From: Falsirhodobacter halotolerans
GTDB taxonomy: Bacteria; Pseudomonadota; Alphaproteobacteria; Rhodobacterales; Rhodobacteraceae
Assembly: GCF_022899245.1 (NCBI RefSeq)
Contig: NZ_JALJAZ010000001.1
Location: 414,501-478,500, forward strand
Reading direction: 5' to 3'
DNA length: 64,000 nt
Positions 1-5,785 of this stretch are shown here, one piece after another. Each line of letters starts with the position of its first letter. Positions within the stretch are counted from its first letter, which is position 1. Both the position numbers and the translations under genes were made by a program. Below the pieces are notes generated by a model. The model was not told the DNA's origin, did not search any database, and was given only the letters and a program-made list of their open reading frames with translations.

Positions 1-774
1 CACGAGGTTCTTCGCATCGGGCCGGCCCTCCAGCCCCTCCACCGTGTCGGGCAGGGGTTCGGCATCGGTCTTGGCCTTGCGGATCTTCTTGGCGATGGTG
101 TCGGCATCGTCGGTCAGGTTGATCCGGCTGGCGTCGGAGGGATCGGATTTCGACATCTTCTTCGTGCCGTCGCGCAGGGACATGACCCGTGTGGCGGGCC
201 CTTCGATCAGCGGTTCGGGAATGGGGAAGAAGTCCGTCTTGTAGTCGTGGTTGAACTTGGCCGCGATGTCGCGGGCCAGTTCGATATGCTGCTTCTGATC
301 CTCGCCCACCGGGACATGGGTGGTGCGGAAGGACAGGATGTCGGCGGCCATCAGCGCGGGGTAGGCCAGAAGACCCAGCGAGGCGTTTTCGGCATTCGCG
401 CCCGATTTGTCCTTGAACTGTGTCATGCGATACATCCAGCCGATGCGCGCCACGCAGGACAAAAGCCAGCCCAACTCGGCATGGGCGGTCACCTGGCTTT
501 GGTTATACAGGATCGAACGCTTCGGATCGACGCCCGACGCGATATAGGAGGCCGCGATCTCGCGCGTTTGCTGGCGCAGGCGCGCGGGGTCCTGCCAGAC
601 GGTGACGGCGTGCAGATCGACCACGCAATACAGCGTCTCGATCCCCTCATCCTGTTTTTGCGCAAAACGCTTCAGCGCGCCAAGGTAGTTGCCAAGCGTC
701 AGACTTCCCGAGGGTTGGATGCCCGAAAAGATGCGCGTGGGAAAAGCCTGAGGCGTTTGGACCGGCTCGGCCAT
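1..774 (-). CDS. trpS: Tryptophan--tRNA ligase TrpS (3' part missing)
   Basis: Class I aminoacyl-tRNA synthetase that charges tRNA-Trp with tryptophan in the cytoplasm. The 258 N-terminal residues are visible; the C-terminus lies beyond the left edge. The HIGH-like signature appears as TLGN at residues 26-29, inside a [14 protein letters not shown] context, and KMSKS falls at residues 206-210. The ATG lies 72 bases from the divergent rhomboid-fold gene. Bacterial TrpS is normally about 330-350 residues, so roughly a quarter is missing. No internal stop or frameshift is seen. Confidence 0.96.
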
Positions 775-846: not shown

Positions 847-1521
847 ATGCAGCACGAAAATCCGGTGAACCCGTTGCCCATGGTTGTGTGGCTGCTGGCG
901 CTGCCGATGGTGGCGCTGGAACTGGTGTTCGCCTTGGGCCAGATCGGGCTGATCGGCGATCCGGCCGCGATCGGCTGGCGGGTTCAGGCGATGGAGCGGT
1001 TCGCCTTCTTTCCCCAGATCCTGCAGGCCATGTGGGAGGCGGGCGACTGGCCGTTGGTCCAACTGATGCGGATGATCACCTATGTCTTCGTGCAAGGGTC
1101 GGTCACGCAGGCGGTGTTCGTGGTGGCGATCCTGCTGGCGCTGGGCAAGATGGTGGGGGAGGTGTTCCATCCGGCGGCGGTCTTGGCGGTGTTCGTCCTG
1201 TCCGCCGTGGTGGGGGCGATCGTCTATACCTGTGTGCCGGGGGTGCGGGTGCCGTTGATCGGCGGGTTTCCCGCCGTCTATGGCCTGATCGGGGCGTTCA
1301 CCTTCCTGCTGTGGGTGAAGCTGGCGGGATCGGGGGCGCAATACCGGGCATTCTCGCTGATCGGGTTGTTGCTGGCGGTGCAGTTGCTGTTCGCCGCGCT
1401 GTTCGGAACGGGGTTCTCCTGGGTGGCGGACCTTGCGGGGTTCGTCACCGGCTTTGCGCTGTCCTTCGTGGTCAGCCCCGGCGGGCCGCAGCGGATGCTG
1501 GCCCGCATCCGTCAGCGCTGA
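847..1521 (+). CDS. Rhomboid-fold membrane protein, apparently protease-dead
   Basis: A 224-aa protein with about six hydrophobic segments and recognisable rhomboid architecture: RMITYVFVQGS near 75-85, GGFPAVYGLIGAF at 139-151 and VADLAGFVTG at 193-202. In active rhomboids these regions carry the oxyanion His and Asn, the GxSG serine and the catalytic His. Here the aligned positions read Q88, V92, F141 and D195, so proteolysis is unlikely. The start follows an AAGGAAAA ribosome site. The 3' end overlaps convergent murJ by 10 bases. Automatic annotation would probably call it a rhomboid serine protease; a pseudo-rhomboid role in binding or quality control of membrane proteins is inference. 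Confidence 0.75.
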   Translation: MQHENPVNPLPMVVWLLALPMVALELVFALGQIGLIGDPAAIGWRVQAMERFAFFPQILQAMWEAGDWPLVQLMRMITYVFVQGSVTQAVFVVAILLALGKMVGEVFHPAAVLAVFVLSAVVGAIVYTCVPGVRVPLIGGFPAVYGLIGAFTFLLWVKLAGSGAQYRAFSLIGLLLAVQLLFAALFGTGFSWVADLAGFVTGFALSFVVSPGGPQRMLARIRQR

Positions 1522-3053
1522 CGGCGCAGCTGGGCCTTCATGTCCGCCGGGCGGAAGGCCCCCAGCAGGAAGGCCGTGCCGAAATAGGTCACGATCCCGA
1601 GCGCGACCAGTGCGGCCAGCGCGCCATAGCGCAGCCCCTCCGTCGCCAGCGGGCCCGCAAGCGCCATCGACGCCGCCCACAGCGCCCCCCCCATGATGAC
1701 CGAGGCCAGCGCGATGCGCGGCAGGCGGGCGCGCAGGCGGGCATCGGGGCGCACCGCATCCCCCATGCCTCGCGCGCCCCACCACAGCTGCGCGAACATC
1801 ACCCAGCCCGAGACGGTGGTGGCCAGCGCCGCCGCAAGGAACCCGATGACCGGCATCATGCCCACGGCGAAGATCACGTTCACCACCATCGACCACAGCG
1901 CATAGCGGAACGGGCTGCGCGTATCCTCGCGCGCGTAATAAAGGGGCTGGAACAGTTTGTGCAGCACGAAGGCGGGCAGACCCAGACCATAGGCCGCCAG
2001 CACCAGCGCGGTGTTCCGTGCGTCCGTCGGGCTGAACGCGCCACGTTCATAGAGCACGCTGGTCAAGGGCAGGGCGATCACCACCAGCGCCACGGCGGCG
2101 GGAAGGGTCAAAAGGGCCGCAAACTCCATCCCGCGGTTGAAGCTGGCGCGACCGCCCTCATGATCGCCCGCGCGCAGACGGCGCGACAGTTCGGGCAGCA
2201 GCACCGTGCCGATGGCGATGCCCACCACACCCAGAGGCAGTTGATAAAGACGGTCGGCATAGGACAGCCAGCCGACCGCGCCTTCGGTGAAGCTGGCGAC
2301 CTGACGCCCCACCAGAAGGTTGATCTGCACGACGCCCCCCGCCAGAACGGCGGGCCCGGCGATGACCAGCAGGCGCTTGAGTTCCGGCGTCAGCCGGGGG
2401 CGTCCGGGCAGGAACGTGTATCCTGCGCGCCGCGCCGCCCACCAGGTGAAGGCGAATTGCGCGATCCCCGTGACCGGCACCGTCCAGGCCAGCGTCAGCC
2501 CCATGTCCCAGCCCAACCGGGCGGCCAGCAGCATGGCAAGGATGAAGATGACGTTCATCATCACCGGCACCAGCGTGGCTTCGGTGAAGCGCCCGTGGGT
2601 GTTCAGCACCCCCGACATCAGCGCCACCAGCGAGATGAACAGGATATAGACGAAGCCGATCCGCCCATACTGCACCGCCAACCCGAAGCGTTCGTCGCCC
2701 ACAAAGCCCGACGCCATCAGCCAGACAAGGCCGGGCATCGCCAGCGTGCCGATCAGCGTGACGGCGATCAGGACGGACCCCAGCGCGTTGAAGGCATCGG
2801 AGGCGAAGCGCTTCGGCTCCTCCCCCGCCTCGACCTTTTTCGCGAACATCGGCACGAAGGCCATGTTGAACGCGCCTTCGGCAAAGAACCGGCGGAACAT
2901 GTTGGGCAGCGAGAAGGCGACAAGAAAGGCCTCGGCCACCGGCCCTGCGCCCAGATAGGCGGCCATCATGATGTCGCGCACGAACCCCACAAGGCGCGAC
3001 CCGAAGGTCCACCCGCCCACGGTCAGAAAGCCGCGCGTCAGCTTTCGGCTCAC
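1512..3053 (-). CDS. murJ: Lipid II flippase MurJ
   Basis: MurJ/MviN of the MOP exporter superfamily, which moves undecaprenyl-linked lipid II across the inner membrane for peptidoglycan synthesis. It has 513 aa and about 14 hydrophobic segments. The family N-terminus is clear: GSRLVGFVRDIMMAAYLG, then FRRFFAEGAFNMAFVPMF. Its ATG overlaps the glnD stop as ATGA, so the two are translationally coupled. glnD-murJ adjacency is common in alphaproteobacteria. Length is typical. Confidence 0.97.
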   Translation of the reverse strand: MSRKLTRGFLTVGGWTFGSRLVGFVRDIMMAAYLGAGPVAEAFLVAFSLPNMFRRFFAEGAFNMAFVPMFAKKVEAGEEPKRFASDAFNALGSVLIAVTLIGTLAMPGLVWLMASGFVGDERFGLAVQYGRIGFVYILFISLVALMSGVLNTHGRFTEATLVPVMMNVIFILAMLLAARLGWDMGLTLAWTVPVTGIAQFAFTWWAARRAGYTFLPGRPRLTPELKRLLVIAGPAVLAGGVVQINLLVGRQVASFTEGAVGWLSYADRLYQLPLGVVGIAIGTVLLPELSRRLRAGDHEGGRASFNRGMEFAALLTLPAAVALVVIALPLTSVLYERGAFSPTDARNTALVLAAYGLGLPAFVLHKLFQPLYYAREDTRSPFRYALWSMVVNVIFAVGMMPVIGFLAAALATTVSGWVMFAQLWWGARGMGDAVRPDARLRARLPRIALASVIMGGALWAASMALAGPLATEGLRYGALAALVALGIVTYFGTAFLLGAFRPADMKAQLRRQR

Positions 3054-5785
3054 CGTCCGGCCCTCGCCGCGCCATCGGCGATGGCCTTGCGCAATTTGGC
3101 CTCAAGACTGTCCCGGCGGGCGCGGGTGTGCAGTTTCAGTCCGAACATGTCTTTCACATAAAACGTATCGACGACCTGCGCCCCATAGGTCGCGATCTGC
3201 GCCGACGCAATATAGACGTTGTCGGCGGCCAGCGTGCGCGTCAGGTCATACAGAAGGCCGGGCCGGTCGCGGGTGTCCACCTCGATGATGGTGTAGATGT
3301 CGGAGCCGTCATTGTCGAAGACGATATGGGTGGGAAAGCGGAAGGCGCTGTCGCGTTTCTTGACCTTGTCGCGGTCGGCGAACGCCTCGCGCGCGACGAC
3401 CTCGCCTTTCAGGATGCGGTCGATCAGCTGGCGCAGGCGGGGCAGGCGGGCAAGGTCGTAGGGCGCGCCGTCGGCGTCGTGGATCCAGAAGACCGCGGTG
3501 GCATAGCCGTCCTTGGTGGTATAGGTGCGCGCATCGACGATGTTGGCCCCGGCCAGCGCCAAGGCCCCCGCAAGGCGCGAGAAGATGCCCGGATGATCGG
3601 CCAGCGCGAAACAGGCGCGGGTGGCGGCGCGGTCCGGCTCCACGTCCAGATCGATGCGGATCTCGTCATCGCCAAGGCCGTCCAGAAGGCGGGCGAAGAC
3701 CACCTGCGCCTCGGTCGGCAGGCCCTGCCAGTAGGGGGGGTAGTGGCGGGCCATTTCGGCCCGCAACCCGCGGGGGGACCAGTCGGCCAAGGCGGCGCGC
3801 AGGGCGCGGCGGGCCTCGCCCTCGCGGTGCTGGCGGTTCAGGGTTTCAAGCCCCCCTTCCAGCGCCGCCTCGGTATCGCGGTAAAGCTGGCGCAGAAGCT
3901 GCGCCTTCCAGTTGTTCCAAGTGCCCGGACCCACGCCGATGATGTCGCAGGTGGTCAGGACGGTCAGCAGGTCCAGCCGTTTGCGCGACCGCACCGCCTT
4001 GGCGAAATCGGCCACGGTGCGGGGATCGGAGATGTCGCGTTTCTGCGCCACGTCCGACATAAGAAGGTGATAGCGGACCAGCCATTCGATCGTGTCGCAT
4101 TCCTCGGGCGTCAGGCCGAAGCGGCGGGTGACGCGGCGGGCGATCTGCGCCCCCAGGATCGAATGATCCTCGGGTCGGCCCTTGCCGATGTCGTGCAGCA
4201 GCAGGGCGATATACATCAGGCGGCGGAAGGTGCCGTCGCGCATCACCTCGGGCGCCACGGGAACGTCGTCCGCCATCTCCCCTTGCTCGATCCGCGCGAA
4301 GGTGGAGATGCACTGGATCGTGTGTTCGTCCACGGTATAGTGGTGATAGACGTTGAACTGCATCATCGCGACGATGCGCCCGAATTCGGGTATGAACGCC
4401 CCCAGCACCCCCAATTCGTTCATCGACCGCAGGATGCGTTCGGGGTTGCCGTGTTTCAGCATCAGGTCAAGAAAGATGCGGTTCGCCTCGCGGTCCTGCG
4501 CCATGTCGTCGTCGATCAAGGGCAGGTTCGCCGCGATCAGGCGCTGGGTGTCGGGATGCATCATCGTGCCGGTGCGCTGCACCTCCTCGAAGATGCGCAG
4601 GATGTTCAGCTTGTCGCTCAGGAACGTCGAGGGATCGCGGGGTTCGATGCGGCCGTGGTTCAGGCGGTAATCGCGTTTCAGCACCTTGCGGCGGCGCAAA
4701 AGGCCCATCAGCCGCGCCTCGCCCTTGGCATGGCGGGCCTCCAGCTCGGCCAGAAAGACGCTGGTCAATTCGCCCACGCGGGTGGCCTGGCGGAAATATT
4801 CCTGCATGAACCGTTCGACGCCGCGACGGCCGGGGCGATCCTCGAACCCCATGCGGGCGGCCACCTCCACCTGCATGTCGAAGGTCAGCTTGTCCACCGC
4901 GCGGCCGGCGGCGTAATGCAGGTGGGACCGGACGGTCCACAGGAAATCCTCGGCCGCGCGGAACAGGTTGTATTCGTCGCGGGTGAACAGATCGGCGGCG
5001 ACCAGCCCTTCGGCTTTCGGCACGCGGTGCAGGTATTTGCCGATCCAATAGAGGGTCTGAAGATCGCGCAGGCCGCCCTTGCCCTCTTTCACGTTGGGTT
5101 CCAGCACATAGCGCTGGCCCCCCTGGCGTTGGTGGCGTTCGGCGCGTTCGGCCAGTTTCGCCTCGATGAACTCCGGCCCCGATTTGCGGAACAGGTCCGT
5201 CCACAGGCGTTCGGGCAGGGTGGCGGCCAGCGCCGCATCGCCGGTGATGAACCGCTGTTCCAGCAGGGCGGTGCGGATGGTGATGTCCGACCGCGCCATC
5301 GTCAGGCATTCGGACACGGACCGCGTGGCGTGGCCGACCTTCAGCTTCAAATCCCACAGGATATACAGCGTCGCCTCCACCACCGCGCGGTCGGCGTCGG
5401 TGGCGCGCGGCTGGGTCAGGAACAAGAGGTCCACATCGGAGAAGGGGGCCATCTCCTCGCGGCCATACCCGCCGACGGCGATGACGGCCAGATGGGCGTC
5501 GCCCGATTGCCCGGCCACGGCGAAGGCGGTGGTCACCAACCGATCCACCAGCGCCGATTGCCCGTTGATCAGGGCGCGGGCGTCATGAGGGTGGGCGGCG
5601 AAGGCCGCGCGCAGTTCGGCCTCGCCCTCGCGCCGAAGATCGGACAGCACGCGGATCGCCGCATCGCGCCATTGGCGCGGGTCGGCGTCGGGGGGCAGAC
5701 CCTCCGCGATCCGGGAGCGGAGCGCGGAGGTGTCGGGCGGTTCAGAAACCGAAGCCGCGAGAGAAGCTGCGGGGGGCTGGGTCAA
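3050..5785 (-). CDS. glnD: Bifunctional PII uridylyltransferase/uridylyl-removing enzyme GlnD
   Basis: Nitrogen sensor that uridylylates PII proteins when glutamine is low and deuridylylates them when it is high. It has 911 aa. Domains in order: nucleotidyltransferase with GGYGREE at 105-111 and metal-binding D117/D119; a GlnE-like helical region; an HD hydrolase domain (LLHDIGKGRPEDHS, near residue 530); and two C-terminal ACT domains (DHPGIFSRLAGAL and DRPGLLYDLTRTL). The start overlaps the end of the upstream lipoprotein gene by 44 bases; no better internal ATG exists before the catalytic domain. Precedes murJ in one operon. Confidence 0.96.
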   Translation of the reverse strand: MTQPPAASLAASVSEPPDTSALRSRIAEGLPPDADPRQWRDAAIRVLSDLRREGEAELRAAFAAHPHDARALINGQSALVDRLVTTAFAVAGQSGDAHLAVIAVGGYGREEMAPFSDVDLLFLTQPRATDADRAVVEATLYILWDLKLKVGHATRSVSECLTMARSDITIRTALLEQRFITGDAALAATLPERLWTDLFRKSGPEFIEAKLAERAERHQRQGGQRYVLEPNVKEGKGGLRDLQTLYWIGKYLHRVPKAEGLVAADLFTRDEYNLFRAAEDFLWTVRSHLHYAAGRAVDKLTFDMQVEVAARMGFEDRPGRRGVERFMQEYFRQATRVGELTSVFLAELEARHAKGEARLMGLLRRRKVLKRDYRLNHGRIEPRDPSTFLSDKLNILRIFEEVQRTGTMMHPDTQRLIAANLPLIDDDMAQDREANRIFLDLMLKHGNPERILRSMNELGVLGAFIPEFGRIVAMMQFNVYHHYTVDEHTIQCISTFARIEQGEMADDVPVAPEVMRDGTFRRLMYIALLLHDIGKGRPEDHSILGAQIARRVTRRFGLTPEECDTIEWLVRYHLLMSDVAQKRDISDPRTVADFAKAVRSRKRLDLLTVLTTCDIIGVGPGTWNNWKAQLLRQLYRDTEAALEGGLETLNRQHREGEARRALRAALADWSPRGLRAEMARHYPPYWQGLPTEAQVVFARLLDGLGDDEIRIDLDVEPDRAATRACFALADHPGIFSRLAGALALAGANIVDARTYTTKDGYATAVFWIHDADGAPYDLARLPRLRQLIDRILKGEVVAREAFADRDKVKKRDSAFRFPTHIVFDNDGSDIYTIIEVDTRDRPGLLYDLTRTLAADNVYIASAQIATYGAQVVDTFYVKDMFGLKLHTRARRDSLEAKLRKAIADGAARAGR

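Follow-up and report, generated by a model that had tools for sequence, protein, structure and literature searches.

A rhomboid beside trpS and murJ that is predicted to be proteolytically inactive is fixed in the Rhodobacteraceae

The window described here is a stretch of 64,000 nucleotides from Falsirhodobacter halotolerans (contig NZ_JALJAZ010000001.1, positions 414,501 to 478,500 of the forward strand), which carries near its beginning a gene for a rhomboid-like protein. An earlier note on this DNA had proposed that the protein keeps the rhomboid fold after the loss of all four catalytic positions and that it is a maintained pseudoprotease rather than a product of decay. The locus raises the question whether this is so and, if it is, what an inactive rhomboid would do in these bacteria. 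Rhomboid pseudoproteases as such are already well known and are well studied in eukaryotes. A bacterial root of the pseudoprotease function was proposed, according to the accessible part of PMC7231995, on the basis of YqgP, a single protein that is catalytically intact. In the literature searched (subscription papers lay mostly outside it, and an earlier mention is possible), no account of a rhomboid-pseudoprotease family dedicated to this state in bacteria was found, and the literature pairing rhomboids with the Rhodobacterales yielded one match only, on Acetobacteraceae. FlgX (PMC6686046) was considered as a bacterial analogue and dropped, the word 'rhomboid' being absent from the accessible main text of that article.

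The gene and its surroundings are summarized in Table 1. It faces both of the neighbors named in the earlier note: trpS is divergent, with a start-to-start gap of 72 bp, and murJ is convergent, with overlapping gene ends. A scan of positions 700-1600 predicted 0 promoters and 0 terminators (shuffled sequences: 0.1 and 1.1, respectively). A Pfam search of the 3.08 Mb genome yielded a single match to PF01694, which is this gene.

Table 1. Coordinates of the pseudo-rhomboid gene, its motifs and its neighbors in the window (n, aligned members of the family)
Feature	Position	Strand	Remarks
Pseudo-rhomboid gene	847..1521	+	224 aa; six long predicted helices 12-32, 86-106, 109-128, 141-160, 165-186, 191-209
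Codons 8-14, N-terminal motif ahead of TM1	868..888	+	Family form NP[LI]PxVV; N8 117/122, P11 120/122
Q88 codon, oxyanion-His column	1108..1110	+	His 77, Gln 27, other 18 (n=122)
V92 codon, oxyanion-Asn column	1120..1122	+	Asn 0/122
F141 codon, nucleophile-Ser column	1267..1269	+	Tyr 75, Phe 39, Met 5, Gly 2, Asp 1 (n=122)
D195 codon, catalytic-His column, TM6	1429..1431	+	Asp 81, Glu 37, Arg 2, Ala 1, Ser 1 (n=122)
Codons 211-224, C-terminal tail	1477..1518	+	Family form PGGW....RLRxR; P211 118/122, R222 116/122
trpS, partial (N-terminal 258 codons), divergent neighbor	1..774	-	
murJ, convergent neighbor	1512..3053	-	10 bp overlap with the end of the rhomboid gene
glnD, next beyond murJ	3050..5785	-	

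The window protein belongs to the rhomboid superfamily by domain and by predicted six-helix fold. The Pfam Rhomboid domain was matched over residues 72-210 with 52.8 bits (cut-off 22.6 bits). An AlphaFold2 model computed from the window protein and 52 relatives reached a pLDDT of 88.7 and a pTM of 0.84 and contains, besides the six long helices, three shorter ones between the first and the second long helix. Foldseek ranked GlpG chains at the top for this model (E 4.9e-5). In a second structural comparison, the nearest folds were iRhom1 (9xy4, Z 18.5) and E. coli GlpG (Z 17.8), followed by H. influenzae GlpG (Z 17.6) and iRhom2 (Z 16.7); the derlins, Derlin-1 (7y4w_W, Z 9.1) and Der1 (6vk0_C, Z 7.9), came far below GlpG and the iRhoms. 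The rhomboid fold put forward earlier was thus recovered, and of the two eukaryotic parallels drawn, the one to iRhoms is matched by the closest fold, whereas the one to derlins is far weaker. Regarding the PDB chains, a single-sequence search gave one weak unrelated match only, and a profile search led to GlpG and the iRhoms. Two GlpG models of NCBIfam remained far below their cut-offs (23.3 of 250 bits and 13.6 of 335 bits).

Two alignments of the family profile, one to H. influenzae GlpG (2nr9) and one to the profile of a catalytic Rhodobacteraceae paralogue, served to map the columns of the catalytic residues; hhalign related the profile of the pseudo family to that of catalytic Rhodobacteraceae rhomboids with a probability of 96%. 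Statements on the old active site derive from these alignments and not from measured distances. The assignment of Q88 to the oxyanion His, V92 to the oxyanion Asn, F141 to the nucleophile Ser and D195 to the catalytic His was borne out by the profile alignments. Among the 122 members of the main alignment (window included), not one has the original residue at the Asn, Ser or catalytic His column. Tyr or Phe occupies the Ser column in 114/122 and Asp or Glu the His column in 118/122, and the oxyanion Asn is replaced mostly by Val, Ala or Gly. In the window protein all four residues are replaced, as the earlier note stated. Across the family a complete loss holds for these three columns, which are fixed as non-catalytic in the relatives read, but not for the oxyanion His, which 77 of the 122 members have kept at column 88; the fourth loss is lineage-specific and the other three are family-wide. 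Five further members were read, all without the original residue at these three columns and one with Asn at the Ser column, which brings the genomes with residues read to 127 of the 288 with the pseudo form. A second set of 150 members (69 of the same order loci, 80 named loci and the window), which is biased toward typical members and includes some genomes twice, gave Tyr 100 and Phe 50 at the Ser column and Asp 119 and Glu 31 at the His column.

On a tree of the 122 rows, a minimum of 18 switches was counted for each of the two exchanges, Tyr/Phe at column 141 and Asp/Glu at column 195, and no row has Ser at the former or His at the latter. By this alignment the old active site is under a new constraint at columns 141 and 195, which nevertheless rank only 88 and 59 of 224 by grouped entropy and fall outside the most conserved columns; column 88 is variable (rank 186 of 224). 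Many columns are invariant, both among 59 and among 150 members. The residue after the Ser column, P142, is Pro in 113/122, and the residue before it is Gly in the window. The pseudo-rhomboids at loci L214, L217, L220 and L316 have extra residues directly ahead of TM6. A coupling of His/Gln at column 88 to Tyr/Phe at column 141 (Fisher p 8e-5, 102 rows) was dropped because only 6 independent contrasts lay on supported branches, with a median sign-test p of 0.5.

The window protein lacks the make-up of a rhomboid serine protease (the Ser of GxSG in TM4 and a His in TM6, with the oxyanion His and Asn in TM2). Rhomboid-type proteolysis would not be expected of it, and the predicted inactivity is well supported. 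That proteolytic activity persists at a relocated or otherwise non-canonical active site is highly improbable. A conserved acid (D/E195) and aromatic residues (Y/F141 and Y145) do lie at the old site in the alignment, but one acid alone makes no aspartyl dyad, and no Ser or Cys column among the 150 members has a conserved His partner. The best Ser column is 206 (141/150), near the end of TM6, and the only His column of at least 85% is 83 (132/150), which is Gln in the window itself. A relocated catalytic pair was rejected after the conserved Ser, His and Cys columns of these members had been checked and none was found suitable; the alternative Ser/His pair that the earlier note had envisaged was likewise not seen as a conserved pair among them.

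The order was sampled with 292 genomes, which were searched with the window protein. A match was obtained in 291; by score, 288 of the 292 have the pseudo form (E 4.4e-24 or better), and three (G109, G226 and G140) have a catalytic rhomboid as best match. The frame is open in every order match listed. The only genome without a match, G231 (locus L247), has a decayed fragment of 58 profile positions beside trpS; no murJ turned up in the 12 kb read there. This genome also has an intact active rhomboid, which is unlinked. Named carriers of the pseudo form include Cereibacter, Rhodobacter, Rhodovulum, Gemmobacter, Thioclava, Ruegeria, Phaeobacter and Shimia. The arrangement trpS-rhomboid-murJ was found in 58/70 order loci (1.5 kb flanks), 71/80 named loci, 16/18 divergent loci, 23/30 hand-picked loci and 5/5 loci of the genus, the misses of murJ being partly explained by short flanks. 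In all loci examined trpS adjoins the rhomboid gene, except for the named locus L164, which lies at a contig end. On a contig of Gemmobacter serpentinus (L103), glnD and murJ are located on the other side of trpS, and the rhomboid gene no longer adjoins murJ.

Selection on the pseudo-rhomboid is purifying and looser than on its housekeeping neighbors trpS and murJ. The 13 closest distinct pairs (dS < 0.4), none of which includes the window, gave dN/dS values of 0.03-0.18. Only pairs with dS < 0.4 are quoted, as a looser filter (5,050 pairs, median 0.47, range 0.03 to 1.10) retained mostly saturated ones. Regarding the genus of the window, where the gene is kept open in 7/7 genomes, dN/dS between the window and its 6 relatives was 0.19-0.55, compared with 0.09 to 0.23 for trpS and murJ in the same pairs, and dN of the pseudo-rhomboid was 2.0-3.5 times that of trpS and murJ. 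The GC3 of the window gene is 0.90, and dS is probably underestimated in GC-rich DNA, such that the ratios are upper values.

The fast evolution in the genus of the window and the decayed fragment of G231, from which it is clear that the gene can be lost, are what speaks for decay or neutral drift of the gene. Taken over the whole family this is very unlikely, given the strong match kept in 288/292 genomes, the low dN/dS of the closest pairs, the invariant columns and the open frames; with frame, helices and flanking motifs conserved as well, simple decay appears to be excluded for the family. The gene combines a predicted rhomboid fold, the loss of the catalytic residues and selection, which are the features of a pseudoprotease. 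Shared substitutions, an intact predicted fold, purifying selection and a locus conserved where examined uphold the earlier view of a maintained protein. That it is a fixed rhomboid pseudoprotease of one alphaproteobacterial family, the Rhodobacteraceae, is a well supported prediction from the sequences.

In a class sample of 385 genomes, matches outside the family reached at most 67.5 bits, compared with 297 to 360 bits for the five Rhodobacteraceae in the sample; the most divergent pseudo forms inside the family score 143 to 253 bits. Among the best 25 loci outside the family, the four columns were readable in 21 and read His, Asn, Ser and His in 21/21. The 28 best murJ loci of other Alphaproteobacteria include 25 in which trpS and murJ are immediate neighbors and leave no space for a rhomboid gene; in the remaining 3/28, trpS was not found within the flank. 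A catalytic rhomboid occupies the same slot in three genomes, namely between trpS and murJ in G109 and G226 and beside trpS only in G140 (L241), where it is intact and has no murJ within 6 kb. A tree of TrpS and MurJ, computed without support values, placed G109 and G226 as the first branch of the family; G140, placed on TrpS alone, groups with genomes carrying the pseudo form.

In a rhomboid tree built without the four catalytic columns, the pseudo form is monophyletic (41 rows, support 100/100). The earlier note had allowed for homologues with the normal dyad that would mark this copy as a recent mutant; such homologues do exist, yet the inactive form constitutes one old clade. The clade next to it unites the syntenic catalytic genes of G109, G226 and G140 with an unlinked class of catalytic rhomboids, class 3. 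The syntenic genes join class 3 (98/86) and not the pseudo clade directly; constraining them to the pseudo clade was not rejected (AU p 0.28), a result that permits an origin in place without proving it. Class 3 is a third, unlinked catalytic kind of rhomboid (GASGA[VIL]FGL-like) found in scattered Rhodobacteraceae; its members L233-L240 form one clade near the pseudo clade, whereas L332 and L337-L340 were assigned by motif only. Since three genomes have a catalytic rhomboid in the slot and two of these form the first branch of the family in the TrpS and MurJ tree, the loss of activity probably occurred there. The simplest history would probably be that a catalytic rhomboid entered the murJ-trpS junction in an ancestor of the family and lost its activity there after the earliest branch had split off. 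Possible alternatives are a duplication before the loss or a replacement in G109, G226 and G140.

Most relatives also have an unlinked catalytic paralogue, A2, which was matched in 274/292 genomes of the order at E <= 0.001 (264 strong and 10 weak matches). A Pfam test was applied to 29 genomes (18 without an A2 match, 10 with a weak one, and G231), and in 14 of them, which represent 7 genera and include that of the window, the pseudo form is the single Rhomboid match (G000, G246, G011, G018, G055, G080, G153, G178, G189, G197, G204, G216, G267 and G288). In the genus of the window, the pseudo form is present in 7/7 genomes and alone in 5/7. Among these seven genomes (L003, L320-L324 and the window at positions 1093-1110), Gln is found at both column 83 and column 88 in the five without another rhomboid, and His at both columns in the two with an active paralogue. 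The pseudo form is thus independent of any other detectable rhomboid in the 14 genomes that keep it alone.

This bears on the idea that the protein regulates the active rhomboid of the same cell, in the manner of an iRhom or of a dominant-negative form, by competition for substrates or by hetero-oligomers. The wide distribution of A2 would suit such a regulator, but the intact pseudo form of the 14 genomes has no other Pfam-detectable rhomboid to regulate, and in the genus of the window only 2/7 genomes have an active paralogue. As the main role it was ruled out by the 14 genomes, which make mere regulation of an active rhomboid unlikely, and we regard this reading as improbable. Somewhat less remote, though still rather unlikely, is a dedicated partner of a local product, e.g., of MurJ, the lipid II flippase, which it might assist as a chaperone or stabilize, as the recurring trpS-rhomboid-murJ arrangement might suggest. 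However, the murJ-trpS adjacency without a rhomboid in 25/28 loci of other Alphaproteobacteria indicates that the position may be neutrally inherited; murJ was not found within the short flank in 12/70 and 7/30 loci, nor near the active form in G140, and the convergent genes do not form one operon. A role in lipid handling or as a scaffold (bilayer thinning, lipid binding, scrambling, or an assembly factor unlinked to protein degradation) is unlikely as well, but deserves more weight than a MurJ partner. Rhomboid pseudoproteases are reported to thin the bilayer in the accessible parts of PMC8641752 and PMC12615303, and an acid is kept in TM6 in 118/122 members; the same features fit the binding of clients, and nothing favors the lipid role specifically.

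The features that the pseudo-rhomboids have conserved point to the role that we rank first. Both ends of the protein, which we take to be cytosolic from the topology of GlpG, are conserved in the pseudo clade (NP[LI]PxVV before TM1 and PGGW....RLRxR after TM6), and neither motif is complete in 3 syntenic active and 8 class-3 proteins. The N-terminus of L229, one of the syntenic active proteins, resembles the family motif in part (PPPIVW), and this motif may partly have been inherited. Within the core, the loop-1 Arg (R75) is present in 121/122, the Gly at position 100 in TM2 in 122/122 and the GxxxG of TM6 (G198/G202) in 112/122 members, the window included. The retained core and conserved ends fit the binding of helices, with putative docking sites at the ends.

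In the proposed mechanism, the rhomboid core, with R75 of loop 1, the GxxxG of TM6 and the TM2/TM5 gate (a feature of other rhomboids), would still bind the transmembrane helices of clients, and the terminal motifs would serve as docking sites for a second protein. This partner would most likely be FtsH or another AAA protease of the membrane. Clients would be presented to this protease for degradation or shielded from it, comparable to the action of the Derlins in ERAD (whose partners Hrd1 and p97 are eukaryotic) and of the catalytically dead variant of YqgP. By analogy with these systems, the protein most likely mediates between transmembrane clients and a membrane AAA protease, either as an adaptor or as a shield, and we assign this role a probability of about 0.5; the lipid or scaffold role and the MurJ-specific role come next, in this order.

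The link to FtsH is suggested by YqgP of B. subtilis, which hands MgtE to FtsH without own activity, the S288A variant still being an FtsH adaptor; this adaptor role requires an unoccupied active site (both according to the accessible part of PMC7231995). The two differ in that YqgP is catalytically intact, depends on an open active site and carries a metal-binding domain at its N-terminus, whereas the Rhodobacteraceae pseudo family is dead as judged by sequence, has approximately 11 residues before TM1 and has an aromatic residue at the Ser position. A cytosolic metal-binding domain of the YqgP type is absent from the window protein, which has only 11 residues ahead of the first helix. The bulky Tyr or Phe may fill the old active site, which counts against the comparison with YqgP. 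Concerning the derlins, the available portion of PMC8641752 states that Dfm1 binds membrane clients and thins the bilayer and that Dfm1 and Derlin-1 need the WR and GxxxG motifs. The derlins (Der1, Dfm1 and Derlin-1) share with the bacterial family the state of a pseudoprotease, the GxxxG in TM6, which is present in the window protein, and the Arg of WR; they differ in the weak fold match and in the Trp of WR, found at position 74 in only 5/122 members and replaced in the window (M74 R75).

The iRhoms likewise share the rhomboid fold without catalytic residues, and give the highest Z value. In contrast to them, the bacterial proteins form a clade of their own among alphaproteobacterial rhomboids, and the 224 aa contain no long N-terminal domain and no iRhom homology domain: helix 1 starts at residue 12, and the 53 residues between the long helices 1 and 2 do not provide a cysteine-rich luminal domain. 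Pro immediately precedes the Ser position in iRhoms (GPx; PMC6451368, accessible part), whereas it follows the Ser column in the bacterial family. With the catalytic alphaproteobacterial rhomboids (PF01694) and GlpG, the family shares the six-helix fold, the loop-1 Arg and the GxxxG of TM6, and it differs from them in the replacements of Ser, His and the oxyanion Asn described above. The rarity of the Trp of WR, the weak fold match to derlins, the looser selection and the variable column 88 all count against the explanation ranked first here, as do the partial resemblance of the L229 N-terminus and the grouping of the syntenic catalytic genes with class 3.

A serine-protease label derived from a Pfam Rhomboid match alone would be wrong for these genes. 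The near-universal inactive form, mostly at one chromosomal position where examined, suggests that a protein able to handle membrane proteins can be of use without cleaving them. One may tentatively consider, though it is on the whole doubtful, that the Rhodobacteraceae have a dedicated, near-universal counterpart of Derlins or iRhoms, i.e., a receptor of transmembrane clients for a membrane AAA protease that originated in place and uses its terminal motifs as docking sites. If true, this would be an independent bacterial replay of the step from protease to pseudoprotease, with both end states present in living relatives. The intact and the dead forms in one chromosomal slot would offer a natural before-and-after comparison, and a naturally dead, near-universal bacterial family that is kept without another detectable rhomboid would make the proposal based on YqgP directly testable.
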